In this document: positions 30,991 to 60,147 of the stretch, piece by piece
How positions within the stretch are numbered: position 1 is the stretch's first letter
Layout: each line of letters opens with the position of its first letter
Source: Buxus sempervirens
Taxonomy: Eukaryota; Streptophyta; Magnoliopsida; Buxales; Buxaceae
Assembly: GCA_947561395.2 (NCBI GenBank)
Contig: OX387189.1
Location: 21,204,329 to 21,268,328 of the forward strand
Reading direction: 5' to 3'
Length of the DNA: 64,000 bases
Program-made: the position numbers and the translations under genes
The notes under the pieces: model-generated
Database searches by the model: none
Told to the model about the DNA's origin: nothing
The model's input: only the letters and a program-made list of their open reading frames with translations

Positions 30991-31095
30991 TGTAGACACC
31001 CCAAATTGCACTACAAAATGAGAAAATAATTGAAAACATGTAATTGGGATTTGAAACAGGTCAAAAAAGTATAAAATCTGGCCAAACTGGTCATG

Positions 31096-31205
31096 CCCGT
31101 ATTTTGTTTACGGTCTAGTCATGCCCGCAGTTGATATACGGGCACGGCGTGCCTGTATTAATAATACAGGCAGAGCGCGCCCGTAATATATATACGGGCA
31201 CAGGG
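31096..31205. repeat. GCCCGTAT palindrome cluster upstream of the K promoter
   Basis: Four inverted repeats in 110 bp: CCGTA / TACGG, CCCG / CGGG, GCCTGTATT / AATACAGGC and GCCCGTA / TACGGGC. The third and fourth differ by a paired C-G to T-A exchange. The same motif recurs in the leader at 39742-39872. Confidence 0.85.
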
Positions 31206-35084: not shown

Positions 35085-37297
35085 TGTAGAAACCCGATAA
35101 TTTTCTCTCTGTAAGAATTATTTTGTTGTTATTTATGTGGGGAATTAAAGTTAAGGAGTTTTGTGTAAATATGTAGGAGTTTTCGGTGGGTGAGCGCGCA
35201 TCAAAAAAGAGGTTTCAAAAGTTCGTCGAGCAGCAAATTATTTATGGAAGGTATATATATATACTTTAGGAAAATTAGGTTTGGGTTTTAATACGCGTAT
35301 ACTCATACTGAGATCGATTGGCGATTGCGGCTGCAGCGATTTTCCTAGGTTACTTTGGGAGAGAAGAAGAACTGGGGAGTCCTACCGTTTGGAGTTTGTG
35401 ATCAAGCAGTTCAAAAGGGCTTTTCCTCTTGTGATCAAAAGAGTATCTGGGCGATTAGACGAACTGTTGGTTGGGGTTTGCTCTACGAGGGGTTGCTGTT
35501 GCCAAGACTTGGAAGCGTATAAGGTGAGTGGCACCGTTTTAAAACCTGGGTTTTCGTATTATTCGTAGGTTTAATCTGAATGCATATGTTTTCCTGGAAG
35601 AAGATATTCATGTGTTTTCTGGACGGAGATAGTCCGAGTGTGGTTTCTTTACGATTGAATGAGATAAATAAAAACGTGTTTAGATTAATTTCAAAAGTGG
35701 TTTAAATGTGTTTTGGGAATGTTTGGAGACTAGGAAAATTGTTACAGAGGGAAAAAGTTCGGCCAGTCGTATAGATCTTGAACTAACAGAGAGTCAATGA
35801 AACAGAAGGGTATTCGCCGAGTGGCGCTGACCCAGCGCCAACTGACCTGGTCGGCGAAACCAAAATTTGGTTTTACCGCCGAGCCCGTGCTCAACGCGCG
35901 CCTAGCTCGTGCGGCTTCCTTTTTCTCCGTGCCTAAGTCACCCGAGTCTCGCGCATATCGTGTGCTCAACTCGCGCGTAGTAAATTGTGAAGTGAGCGCG
36001 ACCTGTATTGTTTATAAATGTCTTACCGCCAACCTCGCGCCTAGCGCTAGAGGTCAGTGCAAGGTCGATCCTTTGCCGAATGTTGAGATTTGAGAAAAAT
36101 AAGATACAGAGAACACTTTGAGGGTTTTAAGCACTTACTTATTGACTAGTTGGAATGTTAGAAAATAATATATTAGTCAAACCAAAATCTGAGATTATTG
36201 AATCACCTTCTGAACATTAGTACGAACTATTCGAAAGGAGAGTTTAAGGAAGTTAGGCAGAATTGTTGCTATTTATGATCCTATACTTAAATGAGCTAGG
36301 TTTGGTATATACTTCATCTGTTTTTGAAATTGTATAAATTGGTTTTGTTCACTATCAAATGCCTGAAAAGTATTGAATGGTTTTGTGTGAGTAAGAGAAA
36401 TTTGATTTCATAAGAGTGTTGTTGTGAGGTTGGGAACTTTAAATTGTGTGAGTTGAGGTTCTGGTTGGAACAATTTGTGATGAGTGTATTAAGATACACA
36501 GGTTTGAAATAATTGTGGGTTTACTGAAATGCGGAGTTTATTTGATCCTTGTTAACCTTAGTAATGTGATGGTATGTGTTTATTGGTATAATTGCATGGC
36601 CTTGTGTGTTGCCACGACCAGTGTAGAGCAGCCAGATACCCTGAGTAAGCCTGGTTGTCAGTGCCGATACCCGGAGTAGGCCGGCATTGGATGACGATAC
36701 CCTGAGTAGGCCGTCATTTCAGAGTGTCCGATACCCTGAGTAGGCCGGAACTGTGTACATGGAGGTGTGGAGTGTCTACTTGGCATGTAAATTAATCAAT
36801 GTAAGAATATGCATGACATTGACCTTTTTGTGGTGTTATCGGAAATCTGTTGTTTAAATTGTTGGTTATTATCGAAGCATGTTTTATAACTATGTTTAAC
36901 TATTTCTGCATGCATGTGTCACTCGCTGTGATATTCGTATCTCATCCTTCGTTGTTGCTTTGTTTTTCAGATCTTCGTGGTGAGGTGCCTACTGGGGTAG
37001 ATCCGACTAACACCTATAGGGAGGAGGATTATTACTACAATCCTTAGACTAGTAGGTCATTTTAGATGTAAACTTTGTTTCAATTGATTTTGTGGGAAAT
37101 GTAATAAGGTAGTAAATTGGAACCATTTGATGTTATTTGAAGATTTTATAGACTTATTAGATGAGAATTTTAATTGTGCACTCTGATATGGTATAAATAG
37201 AGTGATTATCTAGCAATCACTGTTATTGAGATCCTTACCTAACCCTCTGTGAGACGTGTTATACCTTTAATGAACAACACGGATCCGGGGCGTTACA
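35085..37297 (+). mobile_element. Solo LTR G (third gypsy LTR family)
   Basis: It begins TGTAGAAACCCG at 35085 and ends CCGGGGCGTTACA at 37297 (2.2 kb), with the TSD actct at 35080-35084 and 37298-37302. It shares blocks with H in the opposite orientation: AAACCTGGGTTTCGTATTATTCG-like DNA near 35540, GCGCCGAGC-type repeats, and the hairpin array at 36629-36750. A TATATATATATAC stretch near 35252 may be the promoter. It has no genes. It is inserted in the K LTR. Confidence 0.88.
36629..36750 (+). repeat. Constant-loop hairpin array in LTR G
   Basis: Four hairpins in 120 bp share the 15-nt loop ATACCCTGAGTAGGC, or one-base variants of it. The stems are CAGCCAG / CTGGTTG, AGTGCCG / CGGCATT, ATGACG / CGTCAT and TCCG / CGGA. 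The arms differ from unit to unit but always pair. Matching arrays on the opposite strand of H lie at 40670-40775 and 40972-41100. Confidence 0.85.
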
Positions 37298-38462
37298 ACT
37301 CTCTAGCTGTAAAAGGTGAAGAGAGAGCTAGGGGAAAGGGGAACAGGTGGATCCCTAGAATAGAACCCCATAATCTGTTTTTCTTTTTTCTTTTTGTAGA
37401 ATAAGGCCATTGATTGTGTTTGTATACCTAAACCTATCTCTAAGTACCTCAAGAATCCTCTCTAGCAGTAAAACGTGAAGAGAGAGCTAGGGGAAAAGAG
37501 AATAGGTGGATCCGTAGGGTAGATCCCCCATGTGCTCTAATCTGTGAGATATGGCTGCTTTGAATATCCTGTTCATGTTTTAATGGTTTTATTTTGAATC
37601 TGAATGAATCATATGAATCTATGATGTTTATGCATGAGATCCCCACTTTTTCCTAAAATTTGGATTTTCACCACTTTTGCACCTACAGCACTGTTTTCGT
37701 GATTTTAGGCTAAGATCCTGGATCTATCATGATCTATATGATAGATCTGGATTCAGAAGCCTGAAAGTAACTTCTTGGATTTCATGAAGTGGTTTTTGAG
37801 TCGTTTTTCATGTTTGAGAGAAGACCCTACGGTCTAAGTTCTCCCGTTTTGATGTTCTTCATCAATGTGGGTATTTTTTGTTTTGATTTTTTGATCTAAT
37901 GTGAAATTTGGGCTATATCTATGTCCTAGACTGTTCAAGTTCAATTCTGCAATATTTTATAAAAATCATATTTTTCTAGATTTCTAGAATTTAACTTGAA
38001 GCCAGGTTTTTGAAGTTTTCAGTTTAGATTGGTTTTATTTGATTTAATCTCAATTTTATTTTAATCATGAAACCCTAGGAATGGTATGATCATATTTGAA
38101 AGTTCTGAATCAATCAGGCTATTCGTATGAAAAAAAGCATACACTTTTATCTTTTTTGTGATTTTTCATGATTTTTGTAGCAAGCCCTTTTTCCTTTATT
38201 TTAACATAAACAATGCCTGGCAACCACCTTGTGTGGATGAATAGGGGTGTCTAACACCGTCCCCTATTCATAACCTAATCCCCTTACCCATCTTTGGTTT
38301 TTTTTAATAGGGTTATTTTTACCCTAAATTTGCGTTTTTTGTGCTTATTTGATATTTTGGTGTCCATTCACACTTAAACAGAATGGTGGCGACTCTTTGT
38401 TTTTAACCAATCCCATGTGATGATTAGGAAGTCATTGAATTGATTTTTCCATGTCTCACCAC

Positions 38463-38481
38463 TGGCGACTCTGCTGGGGAC
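38463..38481 (+). promoter_or_regulatory. Primer-binding site region of element K
   Basis: TGGCGACTCTGCTGGGGAC follows the LTR end at about 38461. This motif is found after the 5' LTR in many plant Tat-type elements, where it pairs with a tRNA 3' end. I have not confirmed which tRNA. Confidence 0.6.
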
Positions 38482-39740
38482 TTGTGGATTTCAGCCTTTT
38501 GGTTTTTGTTCATGTTTTGGGTGTTTTTGCTTGCTTGCTATTTTTAGCATGTTTGATATGTTCTAGGGTTTTGCTTGCTATTTTGTGTTCTTAAGCATGT
38601 TGGGTATGTTTTAAATCTGATTTATTGCCTAAAAGCATGGGTTATTGCCTAAAAGCATGGGGGGTAGAAACATGTTCAATTCTGATTTATAAGATTGTTT
38701 CTAGATGCATGCGTAGAGGGGGTTCTTTTGATAAACCATGCTTATTTCTTGCTGTATTTTTATAATAGCATGTTTTAAATTTCAGCATGATCTCCATGAT
38801 GTATTTTGGTTGTATAACATGATCATATGTTTACATGTTTTGGTGATTTTTGTGAGCATGTTTTAGGTGCTATAGGGTTGCTTTGTTTCCTTGTATTTGT
38901 TTACTTTGAATGTGCTTTCATATTATGCCTTGGTTTGTATATGCATGGCTACGAAAAGAGTGGTAAGGGTTTGGGACGTTGTGAATGTACCCAAATTTTA
39001 CATATGCACTGTGCACATTTTATTTTTTTACACACCCTACCCATAACCTATAGGAAGTTGAACCCCAATGTATGTAGCTTGGCGCAACGAGGTCGATACT
39101 TCGGAAAGCGAAAGTGAAAACATTCACCTTAGAACTTTGGGCCAATGATGTGATGATAATGTGGATCTGTGATTTGATTCTGGTAATCACTAGGCTTGAG
39201 TTCTAAGTTGCCATTAAGCCAAAACCCAAAAACCCCTATTCTTGAAGGTGGAGTTACACGTTTTTGCTAAAGTACACAATTACGTGGGGATATGGGTTTG
39301 TAATTGTGGGAAGGCCGTTTGTATGGTTCCAAGCCAAGGCATAATGCGGATGCCATATTGAAGGTAAACAAGGTAACCTTAACTTTTGCATTATTTTCAT
39401 GTCATAGGGTTGTCATGGTGTCCATCGGGTTGGGATAAAATTGGTCCCAAATAGGCATGTATCCTAAAATTGGTGTAGCCCATAGGAAGAGTTTTTAACT
39501 CTGTTCAGAATCAATCCTACCCAATGTTCATACAAGAGGCAACCAAAGGGTACCATACCCCTGAATATGGTGTCAATTTGGAGGGAACATGTGCCCTCCT
39601 AAACGTGTATTTTTGCAAATAGGTCAAAGTCCACTTTGGGACAGTTTAGAAGCCTTGCAAGGGTGAACTGCATGTTTGGATGAACAATCAAAGTGATCAA
39701 ATCATGTAAAAATTGGAAAAAACAAAAAAGGCTCCGTAAA
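38482..39740 (+). other. First part of the K leader, no ORF of note
   Basis: About 1.26 kb of AT-rich DNA with many GCATGTTT and TGCTTGCTATTTT repeats at 38520-38900. From 39030 there is a less AT-rich stretch. I see no conserved coding motif. It is probably untranslated leader, possibly spliced. Confidence 0.5.
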
Positions 39741-39741
39741 C

Positions 39742-39872
39742 TGCATTTATTAAACGGGTTGGGCTTGCCCGTATTGGTTATACGGGCTGGTCTCATCCGT
39801 GTTGGCTATACGGTCATGGCTTGCTCGCAATTTAAATGCGGGCAAGGCCGGACCGTACTGTATATGCGGTTT
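39742..39872. repeat. GCCCGTAT palindrome cluster in the K leader
   Basis: Inverted repeats GCCCGTAT / ATACGGGC (39767-39787), CCGT / ACGG, and GGCTTGCTCGCA / TGCGGGCAAGGCC around AATTTAAA. They match the class found upstream of the K TATA box at 31096-31205. Confidence 0.8.
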
Positions 39873-40044
39873 TCTCGGAAAATTCAAATCTAAACAGTTT
39901 TTTCCACTAAATCATGTTCCTTCAACCTTCAAATGATGATAAAGGGAAATGAGTTTGAATAAAATGTTTCAAAAAAATTTTTTTAATACAAATGTGAAAC
40001 AAAAAAAAATCTAAAAAAGAATAAATAAATAAAAAATAAAATCT

Positions 40045-43000
40045 TTGGGCCTCTGAAAGCCTTTGAATTTTATACCTTTTTCAAAAAATCTTTGGGCCTC
40101 TGAATGTAACGCCCCGGATCTGAGTCACGAAATAACACCGTAACTCATCCCCGGAGGTTAATTTAAAACACAGGATCGCAATATCAGAATGAAGGAAAAA
40201 CATGAATACAACAATAGCTATATAACAGAGTGCGCTAAAATATTCCTAAACTAAAATAAAACTCACATGTCCTAGTAACTACCCGCAAGTATCGAGCTCT
40301 CCAAGAGTATCTGAAAACAAAACAAAAGCAACGGGGTGAGATACGAATATCCCAGTGAGCAGCACATGCATGCACAAATACATTTAGTTCAGTTCTAAAA
40401 CATGCCACGATTACAAACCATATACAACGATGATAACACGTATAACCCAACAAAACTTCAACGATCCAATTTACATCCATGAGGAAAACCATCGTATAAA
40501 CCAAGCAGTAAAGACGGTATCAAATCATGCATATAGCCGTAAAGTCATGTATAACCAGGTAACAACATATCGAATAAATCATAGTTCAGCAACTCAAAAG
40601 ATATAACTCGGGTCCCAACCTGTATCAACAATAAAGTCACATCATAGCCATGCCCACGCCTCTCAATGTATATCCGGCCTACTCAGGGTTTCGGATATTG
40701 AAATGACAGCGTCATCCAATGCCGGCCTACTCCGGGTATCGGAATTGACAACACCCTACCACTCAGGGTCACGATGCTGCTCTACACTGGCGGAAAAACT
40801 ACTAACACCAGATAAGCGATAAACCACATTCAGTGAACCATAAATACCAATAAACAAGCGGATAAAACATATTGTGCCAAATAAACAAATCCCCACAGTA
40901 GTCAATGTCATGTAGTTGCTTAGTTTGGTTAATCAACATGCCAGAGCGACATCCACACCTCCATGTACACAGTTCCGGCCTACTCAGGGTATCGGACACT
41001 CTGAAATGACGGCCTACTCAGGGTATCGTTATCCAATGCCGGCCTACTCCTGGTATCAGCATTGACAACCAGGCCTACTCAGGGTTTCTGGCTGCTCTAC
41101 ACCGGTCGTGGCAACACTCCATGGCCATGCCATTACACCAATAAAACAAAATACATCACATTACTAAGCTTAGACTCTGGATCCAGGACAAGCTAAACGA
41201 AAACCGATAAATAACCAAATAAACTCCGCATTCAGTAAACCCACATTTATTTCGAACCTGTGTATCCCAATACACTCATCACAAATTGTTCCAACCAGAA
41301 TAGTAACTCCTCACAAGTGTTCCAACCAGAACTTCCACTCACACAAGAAAATAGTCTTTACAATTCATTTCAAAACTTGCCAATAAGTAAAGCCAGGATT
41401 TAATAAATTCTCAACCAAGTACAGTGTTTAACCAAAGAGAACTAAAATAGGAACTCCTAGTGTTTGGTATCCAAAACATCACCTACAGATAGCCCTAAAT
41501 TTGCCTTGGAAGCTCCTAAGAATTTCCAGAATTTATCTTTAATATTCTCATAGGTAATATTGTTTCTAGAGTCTTAAACATGTGATTTGTCGAGTGCTTG
41601 AAACCTCTTATCATCAAAATCCAACTTGGTTTACTCAAACATGCAATTTGGCAAAGAAAATGGACCATGCGCTGACCTCCTGCACTAGGCGCGAGGTCGG
41701 CGGGAGGTCGATGGTCGAAATTTTGGGTATGCGCCCACTTCAAGTCGAGTGAGCCCGAGCTAGGCGTGAAGTGGGCGGGAGGTTCGCGCGAGATGCGCGT
41801 ATCGGGTTTAATTGCGCGCGAACTGAGTGCCAAGTGGGTGCAAGCTCGGTGGATAGTATAATTTGACCTTGCGCCTACTACCCGAAGTGGGCGCCAGTGA
41901 GCGCCAAGTGGGCGGATAGTCGACTGAGTTTTCGAGTCTCTGTTATTTCCAGATCTACAACTCTGGCCGAACTTTTTCGGTCTGTAACTACTTCTTTAGT
42001 CTCCTAATATCCCCAGCACACATTCAAACTAGTTTTGGAATTAATCTAACACAAATTTTATTTACCCTCGTCCAGTTTTAAAGAAACAATCCTCGGACTA
42101 TCTCCGTCCAGAAAACCAATGAATATCTCATTCCACAAACATATGCATTCAGATTAAACTTACGAATAATACGAAACCCAGGTTTTAAAACAGTGCCACT
42201 CACCTTACACGCGCTTCCAAGTCTTTGCAATAGCATCCTTCGTGAAGCAAAAACCAACCAAGATCCACGACACACAGTCGATCGCCGCCCAGTCGATCGG
42301 CACCCAAACTCCTTCGTTTCGCGAGAGTCTTTCCTGGATACCCTTACCACGGAACAACTGGATCGGCAGGAAAACCCAGACTTCTTCTCCTCTCCAAACC
42401 CTATATCACCAGCCGCAATTGCCTTCAACTCAAAGTATCCGTAAACGAAAAGAAAACCCTACGAGTCCAAATACGCTAGGTATTTATACTTACCTTACAT
42501 ACACTTTGCCGCTCGACAAGTTTTGAAACACTTGATTTGGTGCAACGCTCGCCCACCAAGATTCCTACCTATTCAACTCATTTAAGTGTGCGATCAGGTA
42601 CCTGCCACTCCACAAAAAACCTACACCAGCATCTTCCCCAAATAAATAAAATTTTCCCATTTTAAATAATTCATCCTATTTAGATTTTAAATTTAGCTCA
42701 AATTAATTTCCTCTTCTCAATTATTAAAATTTTTCATTAATTAAACTAATTAACAACAAAATCTAAAATATTTTTATGTTATTAAAATTCGGGATTTTAC
42801 ACTGAAAGCCTTTGAATTTCAGACCTTTTTCAAAAAAATCTCTGGGCCTCTGAAAGCCTTTGAATTTCAGACCTTTCTCAAAAATCTTTGGGCCTCTGGA
42901 AGCCTTTGAATTTCAGATCTTTTTCTTTGGGCCTCTGAAAGACTCTGAATTTTAGATCTTTTTCTGTGGGCCTCTGAAAGCCTTTGAATTTCAGATCTTT

Positions 43001-44410
43001 TTCTTTGAGCGTCTGAAAGCCTTTGAATTTCAGATCCATGGGCCTCTGAAAGCCTTTGAATTTCAGATCTTTTTCTTTGGGCCTCTGAAAGACTCTGAAT
43101 TTTAGATCTTTTTCTGTGGGCCTTTGAAAGCCTTTGAATTTAAGATCTTTTTCTTTGAGCGTCTGAAAGCCTTTGAATTTCAGATCCATGGGCCTCTGAA
43201 AGCCTTTGAATTTCAGACCTTTCTAAAAAATCTTTGGGCCTCTGAAAGCCTTTGAATTTCAGATCTTTTTCTTTGGGCCTCTGAAAGCCTTTGAATTTCA
43301 GAAATATCCTTGGGCCTCTGAAAGCCTTTGAATTTCAGATATTTTTCCAAAATACCTTTGGGCTTTTGAAAGCCTTCGAATTTCAGACTTTACCCTTGGG
43401 CCTCTGAAAGCCTTTGAATTTTAGATCTTTGGCCCCCTAAAAGCCTTTGAATTTTAGACTTTTCCCCTGGGCTTCTGAAAGCTTTTGAATTTCAGACCTC
43501 TTTCAAAAAATCTTTGGGCCTTTGAAAGCCTTTGAATTTCAGACATTTCTCAAAAATCTTTGGGCCTCTGAAAGCCTTTGAATTTTAGACCTTTTTCAAA
43601 AAATCTTTGGGCCTCTGAAAGCCTTTGAATTTCAGACATTTTTCAAAAATATTCCTGGGCCTCTGAAAGTTTTTGAATTTCAGACCTTTTTCAAAATATC
43701 CCTGGGCCATCTAAAAGCTTCTGAATTTTAGGCAAATCATTTCTTTGGGCTGTCTAAAAGCCTCTGAATTTTCGACAAATCATTTCTTTGGGCTGTCTAA
43801 AAGCCTCTGAATTTTAGACAAATCATCTCTTTGGGCCGTCTATAAGCCTCTGAATTATAGACACATATTCTTTGGGCCGTCCATAAGCCTCTGAATTATA
43901 GACACATATTCTTTGGGCTGTCTATAAGCCTCTGAATTATAGACACATATTCTTTGGGCCATTTAAAAGCCTCTGAATTTTAGACAAATCATTCCTTTGG
44001 GCTGTCTAAAAGCCTCTGAATTTTAGACACAATCTTTTTGGGCCATTTGAAAGCCTCTGAATTTCAAACATCCATCTCTTTGGGCCGTCTAAAAGCCTTT
44101 GAATTTTAGACACAACCTTTTTTTGGGCCGTCTAAAAGCCTCTGAATTTTAGACACAATCGTTTTGGGCCATTTGGAAGCCTCTGAATTTCAAGCATCCA
44201 TCTCTTTGGGCCGTATATAAGCCTCTAAATTATAAACACATATCCATTTTGGGCCGTCTAAAAGCCTCTGAATTTTAGATATTTCTCATTCTTTGTGGGA
44301 CCTGTTGGAAGCCCTAAAATATTCCAACAACTCTTTGGTTGGTCTTTTTCGTACCAATCATTTCATACCTTGTGGGATATGTTGGAAGCCCTAGAATATT
44401 CCAACAACTC
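40045..44410 (+). repeat. Tandem hairpin array in the K leader (about 39 units)
   Basis: Not counting solo LTR H, about 1.65 kb of units of about 37-46 bp. Each has the constant centre GCCTTTGAA or GCCTCTGAA between two paired arms, preceded by TTGGGCC. Arm pairs seen: TCTGAAA / TTTCAGA (most), GTCTAAAA / TTTTAGAC, GTCTATAA / TTATAGAC, TTTGAAA / TTTCAAA, and at the end TGTTGGAA / TTCCAACA (44303-44329 and 44380-44406). A 150-bp higher-order repeat starts at 42934 and 43084. It lies between the primer site and the gag ATG. Confidence 0.92.
40105..42801 (-). mobile_element. Solo LTR H (same family as G, opposite orientation)
   Basis: The plus strand begins TGTAACGCCCCGG at 40105 and ends CGGGATTTTACA at 42801 (2.7 kb), with the TSD ctgaa at 40100-40104 and 42802-42806. 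Read on the minus strand its ends are TGTAAAATCCCGAA and CCGGGGCGTTACA, matching G. It carries GGCCTACTCAGGGTATC hairpin arrays at 40670-40775 and 40972-41100, and GC-rich inverted repeats at 41665-41925. It splits one hairpin unit of the K array. Confidence 0.9.
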
Positions 44411-44595
44411 AAAAAAAAAAAAAAAAGATAAAAAGGGGGGAAAAAATCCAAGCTCGTGTTCACCTAACCTGCATACATGCATTTATAGGTAGGTAACTGA
44501 AATTGAATTGGTACTGATATTTCTTTTTTATTATTTTTCCAAGTATCAAGATATTTGCAACCATAGCTCCTGTGACCAGATCAAGAGCTTGCACC

Positions 44596-45011
44596 ATGAA
44601 TCCCACTGAGAATCAAGCCGATGTTCGTATTCAAGACTTTGCCCAGCTGCAAGAGCAAGTGGCAGGACTTGCCCAAATGCTAGAAAACTTACTGGCGGTG
44701 CAAGCTCAAGTCCAAGCCCAGAACCAAGCCTCCACTTCCAACGTACCACCTCCACCTCAAGTCAATATTCCACCTCCGATTCAACTTATTCCTGAACCCA
44801 TTTCTGAACCCACCTCGGAACCTATACTAACCAGGGAGGAGACGGTTGAATCAGAAAAAGAAAAAGAGAGGATGAGGGATGAGATGGAAAAGAAGTTCAT
44901 GGATAGGCTGGAGATTATTCAGGATGAACTGAGGGAGGTGAAAGGGGTGAATAACTTTGGAGGCACCAATTTCGAAGATTTTTGTCTATGCCCTGACGTA
45001 TGTTTACCGGC
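44596..45011 (+). pseudogene. Start of the element K gag, cut by element I
   Basis: The first ATG of the open frame is at 44596 (MNPTENQ). The 139 codons read without a stop to 45011: a Gln-rich coiled-coil segment (QLQEQVAGLAQMLENLL), a Pro-rich stretch, a charged helix (EKEKERMRDEMEKKFMDR) and NNFGGTNFEDFCLCPDV. The last part matches the segment just before the capsid-like region of plant Tat gag proteins, and element I has a similar SDI-LPAKF site. The frame then runs into the LTR of I, so the capsid domain is lost to this fragment. Confidence 0.75.
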
Positions 45012-46061
45012 TGTGCGCGCGTGGGAAACGCGGCACGGGGTAATTCGGAGTCGCCACCGCCTGATGGGGTGCAGGCGGACACCTGGGTGCCTAATCTTGT
45101 CTATTTAGGGCTTTGGGTCTGCGGCTTTGAGATTCTAAGGTTGGTTCTCAGTTGTGGGCTAGGGAAGTCCGTAGACACCCCAATCCACCCCGTCGGATGA
45201 CGGGTCCCGTGGGTTCCCTGATTTGAGTCAGCTTTCATATTTGGTTCTCACCCGATTCCTAGTCCAGCATGCTTTTTGTTAGGTCTTGGTGGGACCACCT
45301 GAGTGGTGTGGGTCCCTTTTAGTTGATTTTATCTTTTCTTGACTTAAGTGACCTGGCTCTGATTGGGTGGGCCCCGTTGGAAGGCCCTACTGGTGTCCTG
45401 GATGGGCTTGAGTTGGCCTGTGTGCCCTTGGTGGGCCCCAGTCTAAGCCTAGGAGGCCCTGTGGGCTTTGGTTAATGAGTTGGTTTTTTATTAAGGTTCA
45501 AGTTTGAAGCTTAAATGGTTTTCATGCGAGTGGTGGGCCGGATTGGTTTGTGGGCCCCTTAGGTGGGCCCACATGGTGGCCAATTGACTTTGCATCTTTT
45601 ATCTTCGTTGGTTTGCCAAAGTGGGCTGGTCATTGGGCTTGGGGCCCGTGATCCAGGCTTTGGGCTTTGAAAGCCCAGCTCCTTAGAGTTTGGGGCTTGC
45701 ACCCTAACTCGGTTCGGTTGGCGGGCTTTGGCGGGCCCGAAAGGCCCTAGCCCAAGGTCTCGGCCAAACCACACAATTTATGCATTCGTTCACCTTACAA
45801 GGCGCGGGTGGGCCGCATTGGGTTTGGCCCGCCCGGTTCACATGGTTATTTTAGCTTAGGTTATTTAATTGCATGCCTTCAGGTTCATTGGGCTTGGTGG
45901 GCCCCGTTGGAAGGCCCACTAGTGTGCCAAGTTGGACCGGTTGGTCCAAGTCCCATCTTGGGTTTCCGGATGGCCCGGAAACCCTGCTGGTTCAATGATT
46001 TTGATGCAAATCACCATAGAATTCGGCAATACAACAGAATATACAAAAAAAAGCATGCTTC

Positions 46062-46205
46062 TGTGTGTATCCGGTAACTCAGGCCGGACACACAAGTTCC
46101 ACAGGTGATCCGGTCAGAGTGACCGGATACACAGGGCCTGTGGGTTATCCGGCCTTGGTGGCCGGATACGCTAAGGCCTCAGGTGATCCGGCCTGAGTTG
46201 CCGGA
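46062..46205. repeat. ATCCGG palindromes downstream of the element I 3' LTR promoter
   Basis: Inverted repeats GTATCCGG / CCGGACAC, GATCCGGTC / GACCGGATAC, TATCCGGCC / GGCCGGATA and GATCCGGCC / GCCGGATC in 145 bp. Confidence 0.8.
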
Positions 46206-47238
46206 TCACTCTGGAATGGCCTTTTTTGGGCTTTGGCCTTTCGGGATGGATTCCAGGGGGTTCCTGGGACATTTTAAGAGTCTTGTGGGCCCCTATGAGG
46301 GCCCACGTTGGCTCAGGTTTGAGAGAAGCCTCATTTGGCTTCTTTCCTTGGGTCTCTTAGCAAAAGCAAGGGAATGTAAAACAAAAGGGGGGGGGGGGGG
46401 GGGAAGGGGATCATGCTTACACAAGATGGTAATGAAAATAGGACACACACATGGTCCTAATGATGAAGAAGAAATCTGCTTCCAGGGAGGGTTGGTCCCC
46501 GCATGCTTGGATCCAAGGCTAACTACTTTCATGCAAAGAAAACAGGAACCTATACTAACACATGGTGCATGGGATTCACAGCAAAGCCTCACTGGCTATA
46601 CACATGCATTTTACTTGAAGAAATAAAGAAAGGAAGAAAGGGGGGGTTACACATGGGGGTACAAAAGATCACATTCCAAGGAGGAACATGCTCCTCCAGA
46701 GAATGCCTATAATCCAACCTCAAAATAGAAAATACAGAACATTAGAAAGCATGTAAGACTGGACTTTTGTGCCTCTTAAACGATCCCTACGTGGGTATCA
46801 TGCATGCGGTGGCTCCATGCCATAAAAAAGGAAGCAAACACATGCTCAAAGTGATAGGAGCATGACTCCATGCAAAGAAGGAAGTCATACCAAAAATATT
46901 TTTAGAAAAATGCAAGTTTAATATATGATGAACACAACATGCTAGGGAGCCTTACCTGAAGGTTTTTGCACCCTTGAGCGAGGTAGAGACCCCTCCTTGA
47001 GGCCAAAAAGTGTAGCTGGAGATCCTCCTCCTTGAGCACAGCAGTGGTTCCCCCTTTGGCTTCAACAAGAACAAGAAAGAGAGAAGAAGGCCAAGTCTAG
47101 GGTGGCTTTGATTTGTATTTGGAGGTGAAAGAGGGTTGAGAGAGGTGAAAGAGGTGGGATTCGGGGTGAGCAAGTGGGGGAGAAGGGCTGGGAAGCAACC
47201 AAAAATAATGCCAACCCCGGATATGAGCTGCTGTTGGC

Positions 47239-47246
47239 TATTTATA
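47239..47246 (-). promoter_or_regulatory. TATA box of the element I 3' LTR
   Basis: The minus strand reads TATAAATA within gcctataaatagcc. It lies between two ATCCGG palindrome clusters. Confidence 0.5.
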
Positions 47247-47256
47247 GGCAACTTAA

Positions 47257-47510
47257 TGTATCCGGCAACTCAAGCCAGATACACTAAGGCCTCTTCGTAT
47301 CCGGACTTCAAGTCCGGATACACTGGCTTCCCTTTGTATCCGGTAACTCAGGCCGGATACATGACTTAATCATTTCAAAATTTAATGCCGCCGCGAATCT
47401 GTCGGCCAAGTGGCATGAATTTCGCGCGAATATCTTTATGTATCCGGCCTTCAAGTCCGGATATGAAGGAGAGGCAGTGTATCCGGTATATATGACCGGA
47501 TACAAATCAA
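47257..47510. repeat. ATCCGG palindromes upstream of the element I 3' LTR promoter
   Basis: Units include GTATCCGG / CCAGATAC, GTATCCGGACT / AGTCCGGATAC, GTATCCGG / CCGGATAC and GTATCCGGTA / GACCGGATAC. They match the downstream class. Confidence 0.8.
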
Positions 47511-48191
47511 AAAATTACGGATTTGCCCTCGGACTTGACCGATTTGACCCTTTTTGATATCTACGGATCGCCCGTACGAATTTTTTATATTTAAGATTTA
47601 GTCCCTGAGATATTTTGCTGCGTTGGCCGCCACGTGTGCAGCTTCTGCGCCATGTGTGCAGTTTCCGGCTTTGCTGCCCGGGAACTTTGACAGTTCATAT
47701 CTCACTCATCTGAACTCCGATTTGAGCCAGCTCAATTGCGTTAAACTCGTATCGGAGCCCTCTATTTAATGACATGGGGCTAAGCACTTGCACGGATTCC
47801 GAGAAAAAGTCAACTTTTGGCCTTCCCTTAAGTTTGACTGCCCTTAGAACCTTCATCCGGGCCCCGATTCCTGCAAACCCAGTTGCGTTGGAACCGTGTC
47901 GGGATTCTCTATCCATTGGGATAAAGTAAGGCATTTGGCACGGAATTCGAGGAAAAGTCAACTCTCGGCTTTCCCTTAAGTTTGACTGCCCTTAGAACCT
48001 TCATCCGAGCCCCGATTCCTGCAAACCCAGTTGCGTTGGAACCGTGTCGGGATTCTCTATTCATTGGGATAAAGTAAGGTGGCCAAATTTTATCTGATTA
48101 AAAGGTCAACTTTTCACCCCTCAGGGTTTGACTTTTTATCCGGGCTTTGCATTTCTGGCTTTTTTTGGAGCGCAAAAATGAGATGCTTACA

Positions 48192-48207
48192 GCTGCCCCT
48201 CTTTGCC
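48192..48207 (-). promoter_or_regulatory. Polypurine tract of element I
   Basis: The minus strand reads GGCAAAGAGGGGCAGC directly before the LTR start TGTAAGCATC. The position and purine content fit the plus-strand primer. Confidence 0.8.
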
Positions 48208-50385: not shown

Positions 50386-51246
50386 CTAGGCATAGTACAG
50401 TTTGACGGCGTCCGCATTTATCGGCTTGGGAAAAATTGCCCCGTCCATCTCTTGCAGGATAAGTGCTCCTCTGGACATAACCTTGTGGACTACGAATGGC
50501 CCTTCGTAGTTTGGCTTGAATTTCCCACGGTTGTCCTCTTGCTGGGGAAAGATTCTCTTCAGTACTAGGTCTCCCACTTTGAACTGTCGTGGCTTCACTT
50601 TCTTGTTGTAGGCTCGCGCCACTCTCTGTTGATAGAGCTGGCCATGGCACAAAGCCTTGATCCTTTTTTCATCCAATAACTGTAACTGGTCAAATCTGGA
50701 TTCTTCCCATTCGACGTCACTGATTTCAGCTTCCTTCAGAATCCTGAGTGAAGGAATTTGTGCTTCCACGGGGAGGACTGCTTCCATTCCATATACCAGG
50801 GAGAAAGGGGTTGCCCCGGTCGATGTCCTAATCGACGTCCGATAGGCGTGCAGTGCATAGGGCAGCTTCTCATGCCAATCTCTGTAAGTGACTAACATTT
50901 TCACAAGTATCTTCTTCAGATTCTTGTTGGCAGCTTCTACTGTCCCGTTCATCTTGGGCCGGTATGCCATGGAGTTTAGATGTCTGATCTTCAGATCTTC
51001 ACACATCTTTTCCATGCCCTTATTATTCAGATTCTTTGCATTATCAGTGATGATCGCTTCTGGAACTCCGTAGCGACAGACTATATTGTTTCTGATAAAC
51101 TTGAGCACATGAGATTTCTTTACGTCCACGAAGGACATGGCCTTTACCCACTTGGTAAAATAGTCAATTGCCACTAAGATGAACCGATGCCCGTTTGAAG
51201 CCATTGGATGAACCTGCCCTATCATGTCGATTCCCCCAGATGGCAA
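50386..51246 (-). CDS. Integrase core of element I, frameshifted from pol
   Basis: The plus-strand complement of 50386-51246 encodes the catalytic core and C-terminus of a Ty3/gypsy integrase. The DDE triad is visible: Asp in VAIDYFTKWVKA, Asp in ITDNAKN, and Glu in NGTVEAANKNL. Next come WHEKLPYALHAYRTS and TPFSLVYGMEAVLP, and the C-terminal FKVGDLVLKR and YEGPFVV region. The enzyme joins cDNA to nuclear DNA. It should be continuous with pol. The zinc-binding part is in the pol frame, and the switch lies in a run of five C (G on the coding strand) at 51233-51237, where one extra base breaks the frame. The first codons here are out-of-frame filler, not a true start. Confidence 0.9.
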   Translation of the reverse strand: MPSGGIDMIGQVHPMASNGHRFILVAIDYFTKWVKAMSFVDVKKSHVLKFIRNNIVCRYGVPEAIITDNAKNLNNKGMEKMCEDLKIRHLNSMAYRPKMNGTVEAANKNLKKILVKMLVTYRDWHEKLPYALHAYRTSIRTSTGATPFSLVYGMEAVLPVEAQIPSLRILKEAEISDVEWEESRFDQLQLLDEKRIKALCHGQLYQQRVARAYNKKVKPRQFKVGDLVLKRIFPQQEDNRGKFKPNYEGPFVVHKVMSRGALILQEMDGAIFPKPINADAVKLYYA

Positions 51247-54200
51247 ATGGCCAAGGTGATGTCATGGAGTATAACGTATTCGGTGGTGCATGGATGTTGT
51301 CGGCATAAATCTGGCATAACTGGCATTTTCTAACATGAGCGTAGCAGTCGGCCTCCATGGTCATCCAGTAATAGCCCATCCTTAGAATCTTCCTTGCTAG
51401 CATATGCCCATTCATGTGTGCGCCACACAAACCTCCATGGACTTCCTCGATTAATCTCCGCGCCTCAGCTTCTTTGACACATAGCAGTAGGGAATCGTTG
51501 TATGACTTTTTGTACAGTCTGCCCCCACTGTAGAAGTACTGCCCGGCCAATCTCTGTATAGTTCGCTTCTCTGCAGCTGAGGCACCCTCTGGCAGAATTC
51601 TGTCTCTTATATACCTCTCTATATCTGTATACCAAGGCTCCTCTTCGGGTGTGCTTTTATCGACACTGAAGCAGTAAACAGGGTAACGCCGAATTTCTAT
51701 TTCCAGTGGTTGCACCCAAGCATTATTCGTGATGGTGGCCATTGATGCCAGTGTAGCTAGTGCATCTGCAAATCGGTTCCCGTCTCGTGGCATGTAGTCA
51801 AATGTCACGCTCTCAAATTCCTCTTCTAATTCCTTGACCAGTTCTTGGTATGGTACCAACTTCACATCTCTGGTCTTCCAGTCTCCCATCACTTGATAGA
51901 TGATAAGACTTGAGTCACCAAACACTTTCAGCTCTTGTATACGCATCTCAATTGCTGCTCGCAAGCCTAACACACATGCTTCATATTCGGCCATGTTGCT
52001 AGTGCAATCAAACAGAAGTTTCGCTGCTATCGGGTGATGGACACCGTCTGGGGAGATTAGCACTGCTCCGATCCCTTTTCCATTTACATTCACTGCCCCG
52101 TCAAAGAACATTTGCCACTTCGTTTCTTCTGTATCATCTGCAGACTCTGTACACATCACATCTTCGTCCGGGAAGTGAGTCAGAAGTGGTTGGTAGTCAG
52201 GTAGTGGATGCTCTGCCAAGTGATCTGCCACAGCTTGCCCTTTTATCGCCCTTCTAGTTGTGTAGACAATGTCGTACTCAGACAAAAGGACTTGCCACCT
52301 GGCAACCCTATCAGTGGAGATCGGCTTCTCAAAGATATATTTCAACGGATCCAGATTGGAGATCAGTAAGACTGTGTGACTAAGCAAATAATGCCGAAGT
52401 TTCTGAGCTGCCCAGACTAGGGCACAACACGTCTTTTCAAGCACTGTGTATCTGACTTCGATGTCGGTAAACTTCTTGCTCAGGTAGTAGATTGCTTGTT
52501 CTTTCTGCCCTTTCTCATCGTGTTGTCCTAGCACACATCCTACAGCCGTCTCAGAGACTGTCAGATACATAATCAAGGGTCGTCCTGGAACCGGCGGGAC
52601 CAACGTTGGCGGACTCATCAGATATGCTTTGATCTTATCAAACGCTACTTGACAGTCGTCATTCCAAACCACAGGGTTGTCTTTCTTTAGCAGCTTGAAC
52701 ATAGGTTCACACACAGGAGTCATCTGCGCAATGAACCTACTGATATACTGCAATCTGCCCAGGAATCCTCTCACTTCCTTTTCTGTCGACAGAGGAGGCA
52801 TCTCCAGAATTGCCTTTACTTTGACAGGATCAACCTCAATGCCTCGCTTGCCCACTATGAAGCCGAGCAGCTTTCCTGAAGTCACTCCAAACACACACTT
52901 GTTTGGGTTGAGCCGAAGTTTTTGCTCTTTGAGTCTGTCGAACATCTTTCCAAGGTTCACCAAGTGGTCTTCTTCTTCCTTAGACTTCGCTATCATGTCA
53001 TCCACATACACTTCCATCTCTTTGTGTATCATGTCGTGGAACAACAGAGTCATCGCACGCTGATATGTAGCGCCCGCATTTTTCAGTCCAAACGGCATCA
53101 CGCGGTAGCAGTAAGTGCCCCAATGCGTGATAAAGGATGTCTTCTCCATATCTTTAGGTGCCATCCTTATCTGGTTGTAACCAGAGAAGCCGTCCATGAA
53201 AGAGAACATCAAATGCGTTGCTGTGTTGTCTACCAGTACATCAATGTGCGGTAATGGGAAGTCGTCCTTCGGACTTGCTCTATTCAGGTCTCTATAGTCG
53301 ACACACATCCTGACTTTCCCATCTTTCTTGGGAACTGGCACAATGTTGGCTAACCACTCTGGATAGTGAGTTACTTGCAGGAATCCGGCATCCAACTGCT
53401 TGGTGACCTCTTCCTTGATCTTCAGGGCCCATTCCGGCTTCGTGCGCCTGAGCTTCTGTTTCACAGGTATGGCCTCAGACTTTGTTGGTAACCGATGCAC
53501 AACCAAGTCCGTGTCTAACCCGGGCATATCCTCGTATGACCATGCAAACACGTCAGAATAAGACTTAAGAAAATCGAATATCTGTTTTCTCAATAATGGT
53601 GACAGCTTTTTACCAATTTGGAGGATCCTTGGTTGTGCTATTTCACCTATGTCAATTGACTCTGTTTCCTCAATGTTTGCCTGGGGACCCTTTTCATGCC
53701 TTTCCAATGCAAGCTGGAATTCAAGCGGGGTCTCCCACAATTCATCATCGTCCTCATGCTCGAAAGACTCACAGGGGACGATGTTTGAATCTCCTTGCTG
53801 CGATGGGCGAGTGCCCCAATCTGATTTGCCGAGTTCTTGCTCGTTTTCAGGATTGGACACTGGCTCATGCATTTCATTTATTATTGCCATCTGCACTGGC
53901 TTCTCAATTTCTTTTTGTTCTTTTTGTTTTATTATGGCGATCTCATTACCTATCCCGTGCCCCAGATCTTCCAGGTGTGCGTCGGGATTGATACTAAGAT
54001 TGCGATGCTCAAGTTGTTCATTTTTGTTATTTTCTTTTCCAAATAAATGCAAGTAGTAAGAAGAGTTCAGGTATTCATTAAAAATATGAGCAGTAGCTAC
54101 AACAGAAACTTCAGAGGTGATAGAAACCCCCTTTGGAATGGTAGCTTTGCTAATGGCAAAAGGCGTAGCGCTCCAGTTTTTGAGTGGTGCCCGATCTTCC

Positions 54201-56824
54201 TTGTTGATGACGATTGCCGCTTCCGGTTCTTCAGCTAGTACCATGTTGGCGCTGTCGTCAGAAAATAGGCAGATCGGATCATGTACTGCGCCTCCCACTG
54301 GCTTGTTCTGGCTCCTTTCTGACTGGGGGCCAGATTCTGATGATATCCCCATCCATGCTCCACTGATGGGGATGGCCCACGGTATCTCGTCCCTGGGTGG
54401 CGCATACGCGATGGTGACTTCGTTGGCCGGGTCAATTCTGGGGGGGGCAAACATTATGGGTATCCCAGTTGGTATCCCAGGAACTGTAGATGAGTAAGCT
54501 GGTGGTGCCCATTTGCCGTAAGCTGCATGGTATACCTCTTCCGGTACCAGCCCTAGCACTTGGGGCATGCTACGGAACATGCGGTTCAAACCATCGCGAG
54601 TTCCAGGGTGCGGGATATAAGGGCGCGGAGGAGGCGACCTTGGCCTGCGGGTTGGTGCTCCTGAGCTGTCTCGCCCTTCCATCATGCAGACATACATGAC
54701 CGGACCTTCTTCTTTGGATTCCTCAATGGGGGCAGGTGGTGGCACTTCTATCACAGTCGGAGGGTTGACCGGGATCCCGTCAGGGATGAAATGTTCGTCT
54801 GGTGGGGCGAAGGCCATGGTGACTTCGTCAACTGAATCCAGGGCGACCAGTGCTGGCAGGCCCTCTGGCAACCCCTCAAGAGCTGATGGGTCTACTTCTA
54901 CTGCATCTCCAATCCTTTCCATAGGGGGTGGCTCCTCCCAGAGCATCTGAGCCAAACCTTGCAGGTAGTCTTCTTTTGCAGCAGGGGTTTCCAAAAACTC
55001 ATCTCCCCATCCCTGGGGGACTATGTTCTCGATAGCCTGGGCCGCTTCACGCTCCATGTTAGCGAAGCGGTGGTACAAGTTCTCGTGTGTGCATATGGGC
55101 CAGTGGGGGTCTCTTCCTTCAGTTCTTGCCCTTTTCCTCTCGGCATGGTTCCCAAGGAGTCGGGAGTAGTCTTCTGGCTGCGGTCTGAACCCCAGTCCAA
55201 AACCAGTAGTCTGCTCATAAGGTCGGATGGCTGCCTTAATTCCCTGCTTATACTTGCCCAATCCATCGCCGGCTCTGAGACCCCAGTCTGCACAGTCAGC
55301 AGCGCTGAACATGTACTTTCTCCTCTTTTTCGAGAGTCGTCGCCCCCTTTCAGATTCAGGGATACGGTTCACCTGCACCATCTCCAGTGCTTGGAAATTG
55401 AGTGTGGAGGGCAACTCATAATCCACATAAGGTACTCCGACCCTTTCGAACTCTCGATGATCCTCAGCATGTACTGTTATAAGTTCGTTGCCTGACACGA
55501 ACTGGACCATTCTGTGCAGTGTGGAAGATACTGCTCCTGCCTGATGCAGCCACGGCCTCCCAATCAGCAAGTTGAATGAGGCGTTGATATCCATGAGTTC
55601 TAACTCCATGGTAAAGGGCCTACCTGCGATCATGATCACCAAATTGACCTCTCCCAGTGAGTCCCTTCGGGCGTTGTCAAAGCCTCTGACATTGTGCCCA
55701 CTTGGTTTGATCATGGTAGGGCTCAATTGTAAACTATGGAATGTCCTCATCGAACATATATTCAACGCTGACCCATTGTTGATCATGGCTCGCTTTACAA
55801 TGAGATCTACACACTTCACAGTTATATAAAGTGGCTCAGCATGGTCATAACCCTCTGGTGGCAGATCTGCTGCAGAGAAAGAGATAGACTGGGGTGCCAT
55901 GATCACTGACACCACTGCCCCTAGTTGCTCAGGATCGATATTCGTTGGTACGTGTGCGTCACCCAGGACCTTCATCAGTACTGCCCGGTGCTTCTCTGAG
56001 TCAATCAGAAGTCTCATTATGGAAATCTGGGCGGGTACCTTGTTCAACTGCTGGAGGAGATCGTATTCGGGAGTGTAGATGCTGTGGTGCAAATTTGTGA
56101 CCTCCTCTTCTGTGGCCCTTCCCTTTCTCTTGAGGGTCGGTGGCAATTCTGTGACCACGTCCTTCCCTTTTTCTTTCCTTTTTGCTTCTGCTTCTGCTCC
56201 CTCCTCTGGTGCGAGCGGGGGGTCAGTGTTTATGTATCGATCGGATCGGGTGATCCGATCGATTTTTGCTTCAATGGTGGTTGCGGAGGTGGCTTGATGG
56301 TGGAAAGGTTGGGTGGGGTAAGGTGGGGGTGCGGCCTTGTACGAAGGTGGCTCCAGGTTGAGTTTCGAAAGATTCAGTGTGGGTGGTTCGAACGAAAGGT
56401 GGAAGGGGTCTTGTGGAGGTGAGTCCATGATGTCATGGATGTTGAGGGCGGAGGGGTTGGCGAGAGGGGTGGGGTAGAAAAACCCTTGGTCTGTGTGTGG
56501 GTGGAAATGCACCAGAGGGAGATCAGTAGGGAAGTCACTGCCATCTTCTTCAATGACGTTTACCGTCCTGCTTTCTTCGGCTGATGTGTCTTCGGAGTCC
56601 GTATCAGGGGACTCGTCCGAACTCTCATACGGATCAAGCAGGGTTGCAAGTTCAGGAGTGGATGGTGGTTCCTCTTCTTCCGTGGCATAAGGGGGGGTGT
56701 ACCACTCAGACGTGCCGTGGGAAGAGGATTCTAAACTCGGTTCCGCTGATAGGGGATCGGTGAGGGATAGCAGGTCCGGCTCTGAAGTCGCAGACATATA
56801 CTCAGGTGGCCATCTGGTAGACAT
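51164..56824 (-). CDS. Pol of element I: protease, G-patch, RT, two RNase H domains, integrase zinc region
   Basis: 1886 codons are open. Residues 1-250 are a Pro/Glu-rich spacer. A retropepsin-like protease lies near 270-460 with the site INNGSALN at about 348, where most relatives have an Asp before the Asn-Gly-Ser. A G-patch (GLRAGDGLGKY) lies near 515. RT lies at about 1080-1290, with VPVPKKDGKVRMCVDYRDLN, SFMDGFSGYNQI, FGLKNAGATYQ and the catalytic YVDDM near 1272. The first RNase H is at about 1400-1500. The second, archaeal-like one is at about 1570-1720 (FFDGAVNVNG, NMAEYE, GDSSL, DALATLA). The integrase HHCC zinc motif (HGGLCGAHMNGH, CQLC) is near 1795-1838. It follows gag in the same frame after one TAG. 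It ends early because of the frameshift at 51233-51237. Confidence 0.93.
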   Translation of the reverse strand: MSTRWPPEYMSATSEPDLLSLTDPLSAEPSLESSSHGTSEWYTPPYATEEEEPPSTPELATLLDPYESSDESPDTDSEDTSAEESRTVNVIEEDGSDFPTDLPLVHFHPHTDQGFFYPTPLANPSALNIHDIMDSPPQDPFHLSFEPPTLNLSKLNLEPPSYKAAPPPYPTQPFHHQATSATTIEAKIDRITRSDRYINTDPPLAPEEGAEAEAKRKEKGKDVVTELPPTLKRKGRATEEEVTNLHHSIYTPEYDLLQQLNKVPAQISIMRLLIDSEKHRAVLMKVLGDAHVPTNIDPEQLGAVVSVIMAPQSISFSAADLPPEGYDHAEPLYITVKCVDLIVKRAMINNGSALNICSMRTFHSLQLSPTMIKPSGHNVRGFDNARRDSLGEVNLVIMIAGRPFTMELELMDINASFNLLIGRPWLHQAGAVSSTLHRMVQFVSGNELITVHAEDHREFERVGVPYVDYELPSTLNFQALEMVQVNRIPESERGRRLSKKRRKYMFSAADCADWGLRAGDGLGKYKQGIKAAIRPYEQTTGFGLGFRPQPEDYSRLLGNHAERKRARTEGRDPHWPICTHENLYHRFANMEREAAQAIENIVPQGWGDEFLETPAAKEDYLQGLAQMLWEEPPPMERIGDAVEVDPSALEGLPEGLPALVALDSVDEVTMAFAPPDEHFIPDGIPVNPPTVIEVPPPAPIEESKEEGPVMYVCMMEGRDSSGAPTRRPRSPPPRPYIPHPGTRDGLNRMFRSMPQVLGLVPEEVYHAAYGKWAPPAYSSTVPGIPTGIPIMFAPPRIDPANEVTIAYAPPRDEIPWAIPISGAWMGISSESGPQSERSQNKPVGGAVHDPICLFSDDSANMVLAEEPEAAIVINKEDRAPLKNWSATPFAISKATIPKGVSITSEVSVVATAHIFNEYLNSSYYLHLFGKENNKNEQLEHRNLSINPDAHLEDLGHGIGNEIAIIKQKEQKEIEKPVQMAIINEMHEPVSNPENEQELGKSDWGTRPSQQGDSNIVPCESFEHEDDDELWETPLEFQLALERHEKGPQANIEETESIDIGEIAQPRILQIGKKLSPLLRKQIFDFLKSYSDVFAWSYEDMPGLDTDLVVHRLPTKSEAIPVKQKLRRTKPEWALKIKEEVTKQLDAGFLQVTHYPEWLANIVPVPKKDGKVRMCVDYRDLNRASPKDDFPLPHIDVLVDNTATHLMFSFMDGFSGYNQIRMAPKDMEKTSFITHWGTYCYRVMPFGLKNAGATYQRAMTLLFHDMIHKEMEVYVDDMIAKSKEEEDHLVNLGKMFDRLKEQKLRLNPNKCVFGVTSGKLLGFIVGKRGIEVDPVKVKAILEMPPLSTEKEVRGFLGRLQYISRFIAQMTPVCEPMFKLLKKDNPVVWNDDCQVAFDKIKAYLMSPPTLVPPVPGRPLIMYLTVSETAVGCVLGQHDEKGQKEQAIYYLSKKFTDIEVRYTVLEKTCCALVWAAQKLRHYLLSHTVLLISNLDPLKYIFEKPISTDRVARWQVLLSEYDIVYTTRRAIKGQAVADHLAEHPLPDYQPLLTHFPDEDVMCTESADDTEETKWQMFFDGAVNVNGKGIGAVLISPDGVHHPIAAKLLFDCTSNMAEYEACVLGLRAAIEMRIQELKVFGDSSLIIYQVMGDWKTRDVKLVPYQELVKELEEEFESVTFDYMPRDGNRFADALATLASMATITNNAWVQPLEIEIRRYPVYCFSVDKSTPEEEPWYTDIERYIRDRILPEGASAAEKRTIQRLAGQYFYSGGRLYKKSYNDSLLLCVKEAEARRLIEEVHGGLCGAHMNGHMLARKILRMGYYWMTMEADCYAHVRKCQLCQIYADNIHAPPNTLYSMTSPWPFAIWGNRHDRAGSSNGFKRASVHLSGN

Positions 56825-58717: not shown

Positions 58718-58888
58718 GTCGAGCCTTCTCCTCGATCTTAACAGGAACGGGCTTCTGAAAGCAATTTTTGGTACCTGAAGGGACAATTCGCAGGCATTAG
58801 GGTATTTTTACACAAATTTCTTTACACAATTTTATCTGATTGAATTTATTTATTTATATTATTTTTTTTGTTTTATGATATGATTTGA

Positions 58889-59385
58889 CTAACTGATCTA
58901 TTTTAGCTACCCTAAGGCAACAAGGGAAGAGAACCTGAATTTTGAATCAACCGATCTATTTTAGTTACCTGGAAGTGACCGAGAAAGAGAACCCTAGTAA
59001 CCGGATCTATTTTAGCTACCCGTGGGTAACTGGGAAAGAGAACCCTAAATGAATTAGCTGATCTATTTTAGCTACCCGCAGGTAACAAGGGAAGAGAACC
59101 TTAATGAATTTGGAGACTGATCTATTTCGGCTGTCCTAGGACGACCGGGGAAGAGAACCCTAATAAGTTTGAAGACTGATCTATTTTAGCTACCCGTAGG
59201 TAACAAAGGAAGAGAACCTTAGTGACCGAGTCTATTTTAGTCACCCGCAGGCAACTGGGAGAGAGAACCCTATTTTTTTCTGAAAGCTGATCTATTTTAG
59301 TCGCTTGGAAGCGACTGGGACAGAGAACCCGGTTGAACTAATCTATTTTAGCTGTTTAGGCAAGGAAAGAGAACCTTTAATTTAA
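58889..59385 (-). repeat. Tandem hairpin array in the element I leader (9 units)
   Basis: Nine units of about 50-60 bp, each with CTGATCTATTTTAG, a 16-nt hairpin, then a GGGAAGAGAACC block (plus strand). In the RNA (minus) sense the stems include GUUACC / GGUAGC with loop UGCG or UACG, GUUGCC / GGUGAC with loop UGCG, GUUACCC / GGGUAGC, and the perfect GUCGCU / AGCGAC. The flanks are constant, while the arms vary and mostly stay paired. It lies between ORF1 and gag. Confidence 0.88.
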
Positions 59386-59399
59386 GGGGCTTTGTTTGA

Positions 59400-59870: not shown

Positions 59871-60147
59871 TAACACTTGCTGGGTTTTGCGATCTCAATG
59901 AGAGAGATGCAATCAAAGGAAACTAGGTGGTCGCAGCGACCAGGGAGATTGAAATTATCTGAGAATAGGTGGTCTGTCGGAGACCGAGTTGCCCTATTGG
60001 AGGGGATTAATTCCTTCATTTCAAGCTCTTGTTTTGTTAAATTTAAACAACATAGTAGGGTGAAAATAAATTCATGCTTTAATCAAAAAGTGCCGCCGCG
60101 GCACGAAGTACATCATCATGCTTATCAAAATACAACGAAGCCAAAGT

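Follow-up and report, generated by a model that had tools for sequence, protein, structure and literature searches.

A split hairpin array upstream of gag

The window, a 64,000-nucleotide (nt) stretch of the Buxus sempervirens genome (contig OX387189.1 of assembly GCA_947561395.2, positions 21,204,329 to 21,268,328, forward strand), contains part of a long terminal repeat (LTR) retrotransposon with a tandem array of small hairpins in its leader. The array occupied positions 40045-40104 and 42802-44280 of the window, with 37-40 units at a spacing of 33-48 nt, and was followed by two longer hairpins; these features, like those of the host element below, lie on the plus strand. Each unit consisted of a GGGCC block followed by a stem of 7-8 bp that carries a fixed loop of 9 nt, in the order GGGCC, 5′ arm, GCCTYTGAA (the constant centre), 3′ arm and T-rich spacer. 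Between 40045 and 44280, a scan for paired arms recovered 37 units, and pairing-blind scans for the loop plus GGGC recovered 40 and 38. An earlier note, made from the letters of this DNA, had described about 39 hairpins in which complementary arms flank a constant centre (GCC-T/C-T/C-TGAA), and these counts, plus the two longer hairpins, agree with it; all of the arm pairs that it listed are present in the window array, which lies in the leader, as it had proposed, between a primer-binding site (PBS)-like motif and gag.

The same note had drawn the array as spanning 40045-44410. The units are real, but a continuous array was rejected, as a 2,697-bp LTR-like insert with TG...CA ends interrupts it at 40105-42801. 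The insert runs TGTAACGCC...TTTTACA with a CTGAA target duplication on both flanks, and parts of it match 35467-36823 in inverted orientation. To its left (40045-40104), the sequence and unit scan gave one whole unit and one cut by the insert. To its right, 42802-43700 held mainly class A units (TCTGAAA-GCCTTTGAA-TTTCAGA, spacing 33-48), and 43703-44280 held a block of class B (TCTAAAA/TTTTAGA), class C (TCTATAA/TTATAGA) and class D (TTTGAAA/TTTCAAA) units with a spacing of 41-43. The two longer hairpins form class E, with arms TGTTGGAA/TTCCAACA; the first copy is at 44303-44329 (fold z −2.14) and the gag-proximal copy, TGTTGGAAGCCCTAGAATATTCCAACA, is at 44380-44406.

The host of the array is an LTR retrotransposon, as judged from its 5′ LTR, PBS-like site and gag. 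The 5′ LTR starts at 30991-31013 with an exact match to TGTAGACACCCCAAATTGCACTA (opening TGTAGACACCCC), a sequence that opens the shared region beside unrelated flanking DNA in four other copies (L010, L018, L021 and L023). Short GC-rich hairpins of the CCCGTATT/AATACGGG type, one of them CCTG/CAGG, were found in the U3 part of the LTR (31092-31203). Hairpins of this type recurred at +155 to +159 in L018, L021 and L023 and were looked for and not found in L010; TATAAATA was at +417 in L018 and +415 in L021. Within this U3 group, 31150-31172 beside 31122-31203 displayed a paired C-G to T-A change (CCCG/CGGG, CCTG/CAGG). The TGGCGACTC motifs at the LTR end (38387-38481), identified from the sequence and related copies, are what we take to be the PBS. 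In four copies, the distance from LTR start to TGGCGACTC was 1723-1741 bp and that from TGGCGACTC to the first array unit was 1570-1632 nt; the spacings are longer in the window because inserts stretch them. The GC-rich motif of U3 occurred again as leader hairpins at 39764-39880, and in the four copies this leader motif was ∼200-320 nt upstream of the first unit.

The N-terminus of gag, recognized by matches to other copies, extends from an ATG at 44596 to 45000. Similarity to those copies stops near 45011, where another repeat starts, and the window copy ends in gag. No Pfam family matched its 135-residue gag fragment, and an open reading frame (ORF) of one related copy carried PF03732 (Retrotrans_gag, E 9.3e-12). 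We take PF03732 as a pointer to Ty3/Gypsy, and the element, assigned from this gag family, probably belongs there. By eye, the leader is long with ATGs preceding gag, and TACTGAT with a T-rich tract at ∼44513-44540 and AG dinucleotides up to 44567 resembles the 3′ end of an intron. A search of 37300-45010 against Rfam returned no match at the gathering score.

Arm classes and conservation among genomic copies

The arms of the window units were matched with great consistency. Bases paired in 97.2% of 217 cells, taken from 36 of the 37 units (31 distinct; unit 42808, beside the insert, was left out). When compared with 500 shuffles that are blind to relatedness, the observed values for cells paired, cells changed on both sides and covariation score (0.294) were reached by 0/500, and two further measures were unremarkable (3 pairs changed on both sides, reached by 37/500; 7 further pair types, reached by 144/500). 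Chance hairpins were rejected on the grounds of the 97.2% pairing that no shuffle matched. The five arm classes differ solely by paired changes within the 7-bp core. The minimal tree of the classes requires five paired changes and zero unpaired changes, and the chance of such mirroring is ∼5.7e-7 given that number of changes; therefore, some force kept the arms matched when the classes arose. A pairing-blind search of 21 copies yielded 735 units, 558 of which had both 7-nt arms exactly as in class A, B, C or D. A search for units with a substituted loop-closing pair gave two matches, neither of them a unit.

The earlier note had suggested looking for the array in related elements, and within this 676.5-Mb genome it was abundant. 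Scoring of 40 out of 2,024 candidates gave at least 119 array matches, and 20 copies (L009-L028) were picked by array similarity from 39 other places. A search with gag scored 150 matches out of 5,372 candidates, the window's own included. From these 150 we took 20 (L029-L048), first those at the head of the list and after them, by preference, matches of lower identity and with long open frames; places already in the sample were skipped. At least five units were present in 19 of these 20 leaders, which had been chosen by gag match and not by array; the remaining one, L035, had none. Their perfect-stem array hairpins fell into the same five arm classes, with some classes missing from some leaders and only class E among the perfect array stems of L031. 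Exact perfect class-A 23-mers numbered 9,444 + 9,641 = 19,085 genome-wide. As 21 copies held 264 perfect class-A units, or roughly a dozen per array, this total suggests some 1,500 arrays. Array size varied widely among the 21 copies, from 22 to 58 units. As 40 copies had 48 E hairpins between them, few of these copies hold two, and the first E copy (44303-44329) is absent from many relatives.

Sequence divergence was lowest in the loop and highest in the spacer. For aligned arrays in the 85-88% identity bin, it was 3.8% in the loop, 6.7% in the arms and 13.2% in the spacer, and the same order held in two closer identity bins. No other 27-nt stretch of the ∼450 nt compared across 40 copies was as conserved as the gag-proximal E hairpin, whose mean column conservation was 98.3%; the rows had been picked by an E match with at most seven differences, for which 40 of 41 copies qualified.

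Possible pairing in leader RNA and its rivals

We tentatively favour, at somewhat less than even confidence, a reading in which the hairpins were maintained in leader RNA during the active life of the element, the units were then multiplied by duplication and the copies now decay. The array itself could, to about the same degree of belief, be a cis-acting part of that RNA. An active element would have kept the stems pairable and the loop constant, and a protein, either Gag or one of the host, would read the loop on its stem. New stem classes would arise rarely, through paired changes, and the units would multiply via tandem duplication and transposition, so that only a few paired switches would now be seen in tens of thousands of units. 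Copies, once inserted, would decay neutrally. We infer that the array is transcribed, that RNA is the level at which selection acts and that loop reading serves packaging or translation. The earlier note had likewise proposed a structured RNA platform. The leader location, the paired-only differences between classes, the greater conservation of arms and loop than of spacer and the conserved E hairpin agree with that proposal, but neither covariation beyond shared ancestry nor a general preference for G.U was found.

Several results weigh against selection on the stems. The conservation of the loop and of GGGC is flattered, as the units were located by these very elements (the arms are unaffected). 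The note had regarded paired changes across many units as the mark of selection, and covariation beyond shared ancestry had been set beforehand as the test. We applied it in a home-made, R-scape-like form, with a FastTree tree and Fitch substitutions reassigned to random columns in 40 replicates, on 1,153 units (656 unique) of 39 columns from 40 copies. No stem pair was significant among the 656 unique units, a test low in power because it rests on few events; position 2 was best with E 1.6, followed by position 3 (26) and position 5 (44). The sole outstanding column pair (E 0.025) was a non-stem one, upstream of the stem. To the extent that a home-made test on few events allows, this outcome is the first of those that the note had listed as refuting its proposal. 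The large number of paired units goes back to a few old events that were copied, and what had seemed to be recurrent paired change amounts to about five founder events multiplied by duplication. Shuffle-based covariation as proof of RNA selection was thus rejected, because shuffles ignore relatedness and the ancestry-aware null left no significant stem pair. The z scores of six units folded singly, with 200 shuffles for each, ranged from −0.3 to −2.1, and 601 nt of the array folded no better than dinucleotide shuffles on the plus strand (z −0.52, 20 shuffles); the minus strand gave z +1.03 (20 shuffles). Many arms in the 601-nt fold paired with arms of other units.

The balance of G.U and A.C mismatches gave mixed evidence for RNA pairing. 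Selected RNA pairing should tolerate G.U and not A.C, whereas DNA decay should yield the two about equally, as the arms mirror each other. Genome-wide counts of single mutants cover positions 2, 3 and 5. At position 2, G.U exceeded A.C by 207 to 31, with p 4e-33 on the assumption that units are independent, which they are not. These G.U units occur in classes A, B and D with several different spacers and therefore do not stem from one event. In unpaired columns, per-site A>G was about equal to T>C upstream and A>G was rarer in the loop and downstream; plain strand bias therefore fails to explain the excess at position 2. Per-site T>C was lower in the arms (0.0028-0.0054) than in unpaired columns (0.0081-0.0208), as RNA selection predicts. 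Among single changes against class, the 735 units of the first sample had 59 G.U, 41 A.C and 39 others. A larger sample, from which class-tied units were dropped and with them the position-3 transitions, gave 34 G.U and 13 A.C from A:T pairs, of which position 2 contributed 20 and 2, and 13 G.U and 6 A.C from G:C pairs.

Other counts ran against G.U tolerance. The two mismatches stood at 761 G.U versus 879 A.C at position 3 (p 0.004, in the wrong direction) and at ∼716 versus ∼785 at position 5, the latter an estimate based on 770 and 1,090 single mutants, with the composition counted by eye in the first 100 listed of each. At position 7, A.C outnumbered G.U by 90 to 4 in the 735 units. For G>A, a further source of A.C, the arms showed no reduction relative to unpaired columns. 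Nor did inferred substitutions on the unit tree reveal a clear G.U preference, with G.U versus A.C at 12.0/12.4 (G:C) and 6.7/3.0 (A:T) on shared branches and at 25.0/18.7 (G:C) and 20.6/16.9 (A:T) on private ones. The wobble intermediates that had been noted as steps between classes do exist, but A.C is equally common at two of the three positions counted genome-wide.

Nor do present-day mutations speak for repair, as they break stems freely and paired doubles are barely enriched. Class A had 158 doubles at position 5, and the first 100 listed, counted by eye, were 80 paired and 20 unpaired versus an expected ∼70:30 (p 0.037). Of the six doubles at position 2 in class A, three were paired, including two neighbours within a single array, and three were unpaired. 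Mismatches common to copies formed 18 clusters (GU 4, AC 3, other 11); after subtraction of six clusters judged to be wrong-register E hairpins (14-15 copies), these became GU 2, AC 3 and other 7. From this weak compensation and the mixture of shared mismatches, it follows that inserted copies decay without visible stem repair.

The strongest rival dispenses with stem selection altogether. In reverse transcription or in replication, template switching would have copied one arm onto the other, with satellite-like multiplication following and the covariation being clonal; we hold this to be a serious possibility, though a doubtful one. A few paired founder events spread over thousands of units are what it would produce, and single-event creation or mending of stems has been reported, in excerpts of PMC8794818, as have quasi-palindrome mutations in yeast, in excerpts of PMC3820800. 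It also accords with ratios of G.U to A.C near one at positions 3 and 5 and with the wealth of perfect hairpins in other repeats of the window, where perfect inverted repeats of at least 8 bp with loops of 0-14 nt numbered 120, versus 10-15 in three local shuffles. Doubles of the copied-arm kind are rare, however, both beside the 207 G.U and 31 A.C singles of position 2, where just 6 were seen (3 paired), and beside the 19,085 perfect class-A units. Template switching also leaves the constant loop, the conserved GGGCC and the 207 versus 31 asymmetry unexplained.

If selection instead acted on DNA, the palindromes would be dyad sites for a DNA-binding protein, forming an enhancer or silencing signal like the GC-rich palindromes of U3. 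In keeping with this proposal, one GC-rich palindrome family is found before the TATA box and again in the leader, and at two positions G.U is tolerated about as well as A.C; the TGGGCC/T blocks are also reminiscent of the plant site II/TCP motif. We nevertheless consider DNA dyads improbable. Dimeric half-sites should be constant and their spacer free, whereas in this array it is the arms that change, around a constant centre, and the position-2 G.U excess is a further point against them. A loop-reading protein fits better than a DNA dyad because the loop is constant and the stems vary. Very improbable, in our estimate, is that the leader with its array is an intron or shunt region in which hairpins join distant signals for gag translation or splicing. 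The ATGs before gag in the long leader and the TACTGAT with its T-rich tract, both seen by eye, would suit such a role; a number of units that ranges from 22 to 58 in 21 copies would not.

Returning to maintenance in leader RNA, a more specific form of it would make the array a multivalent platform, with many copies of one loop on interchangeable stems and a near-invariant hairpin before gag. This form we regard as unlikely, and we give no better chance to the joint claim that such a platform gathers Gag or a host protein and commits genomic RNA to packaging over translation, with its stems switching by paired steps.

Other hairpin repeats, known systems and significance

Hairpins are enriched in several repeat families of the window. 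In the repeat at ∼45005-48195, hairpins of the TGTATCCGG/CCGGATACA type, whose arms and loops vary, form repeats of ∼39 bp at 46066-46210 and 47257-47504; one such cluster was seen by eye just past a minus-strand TATAAATAG. At 3188-3698 and 11261-11680 there are further hairpin repeats, in which stems of the TTTAGCGGCGGTAA/TTACCGCCGCTAAA type measure 10-18 bp. On the minus strand, 50386-61359 holds another retrotransposon; its gag matches PF03732, and an ORF upstream of it contains a plant mobile domain (PF10536). The 59-bp repeats between these two ORFs had no perfect hairpin of at least 10 bp by scan.

Among the known systems closest to this one is the Tat lineage of plant Gypsy elements. 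In excerpts of PMC6317226, the Tat clade (Ogre, Retand, TatI-III) is defined by reverse transcriptase phylogeny and an additional RNase H domain. According to excerpts of PMC11963269 and PMC7004042, Tat-lineage elements such as Ogre and Retand carry tandem arrays of unknown function. These arrays share with the present one its character as a family-specific tandem array inside a plant element, here a probable Gypsy one; theirs, as those excerpts have it, are situated after pol and before the 3′ LTR, whereas ours lies between LTR and gag and consists of hairpins with paired arm classes. The word "hairpin" does not occur in the main text of PMC7004042 or PMC11963269. Judged by the Tat/Ogre tandem-repeat arrangement, with an array between pol and 3′ LTR, the array described here is differently placed, upstream of gag.

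Retroviral packaging leaders have a few unique hairpins. Here there are tens of near-identical hairpins. The likeness is a structured leader before gag, and a loop read by Gag, with the purine loop of mouse mammary tumor virus as an example (PMC8096270), serves as a working analogy. The template-switch hairpins in excerpts of PMC8794818 resemble the array in that their stems are perfect and their paired changes span several bases with no need for stepwise selection; those excerpts concern RNA genes, and in this retrotransposon array template switching is only a candidate. Paired doubles are rare in the present copies, and the founder events are too old to resolve.

Among the papers listed in literature searches, none was on a hairpin array in a retrotransposon leader, a result that cannot establish unpublished status. 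We regard the array, which is on the gag side, as an unusual variant. Tandem copies inflate covariation, which is a warning for repeat arrays that are scored by eye or with ancestry-blind shuffles. Statistical tests are cheap here, because copy number in one genome is high. Tandem arrays in the untranslated regions of retrotransposons are mostly discussed as raw material for satellites; a gag-side hairpin array whose arm classes are paired and whose loop is conserved offers a case for telling function from drift.

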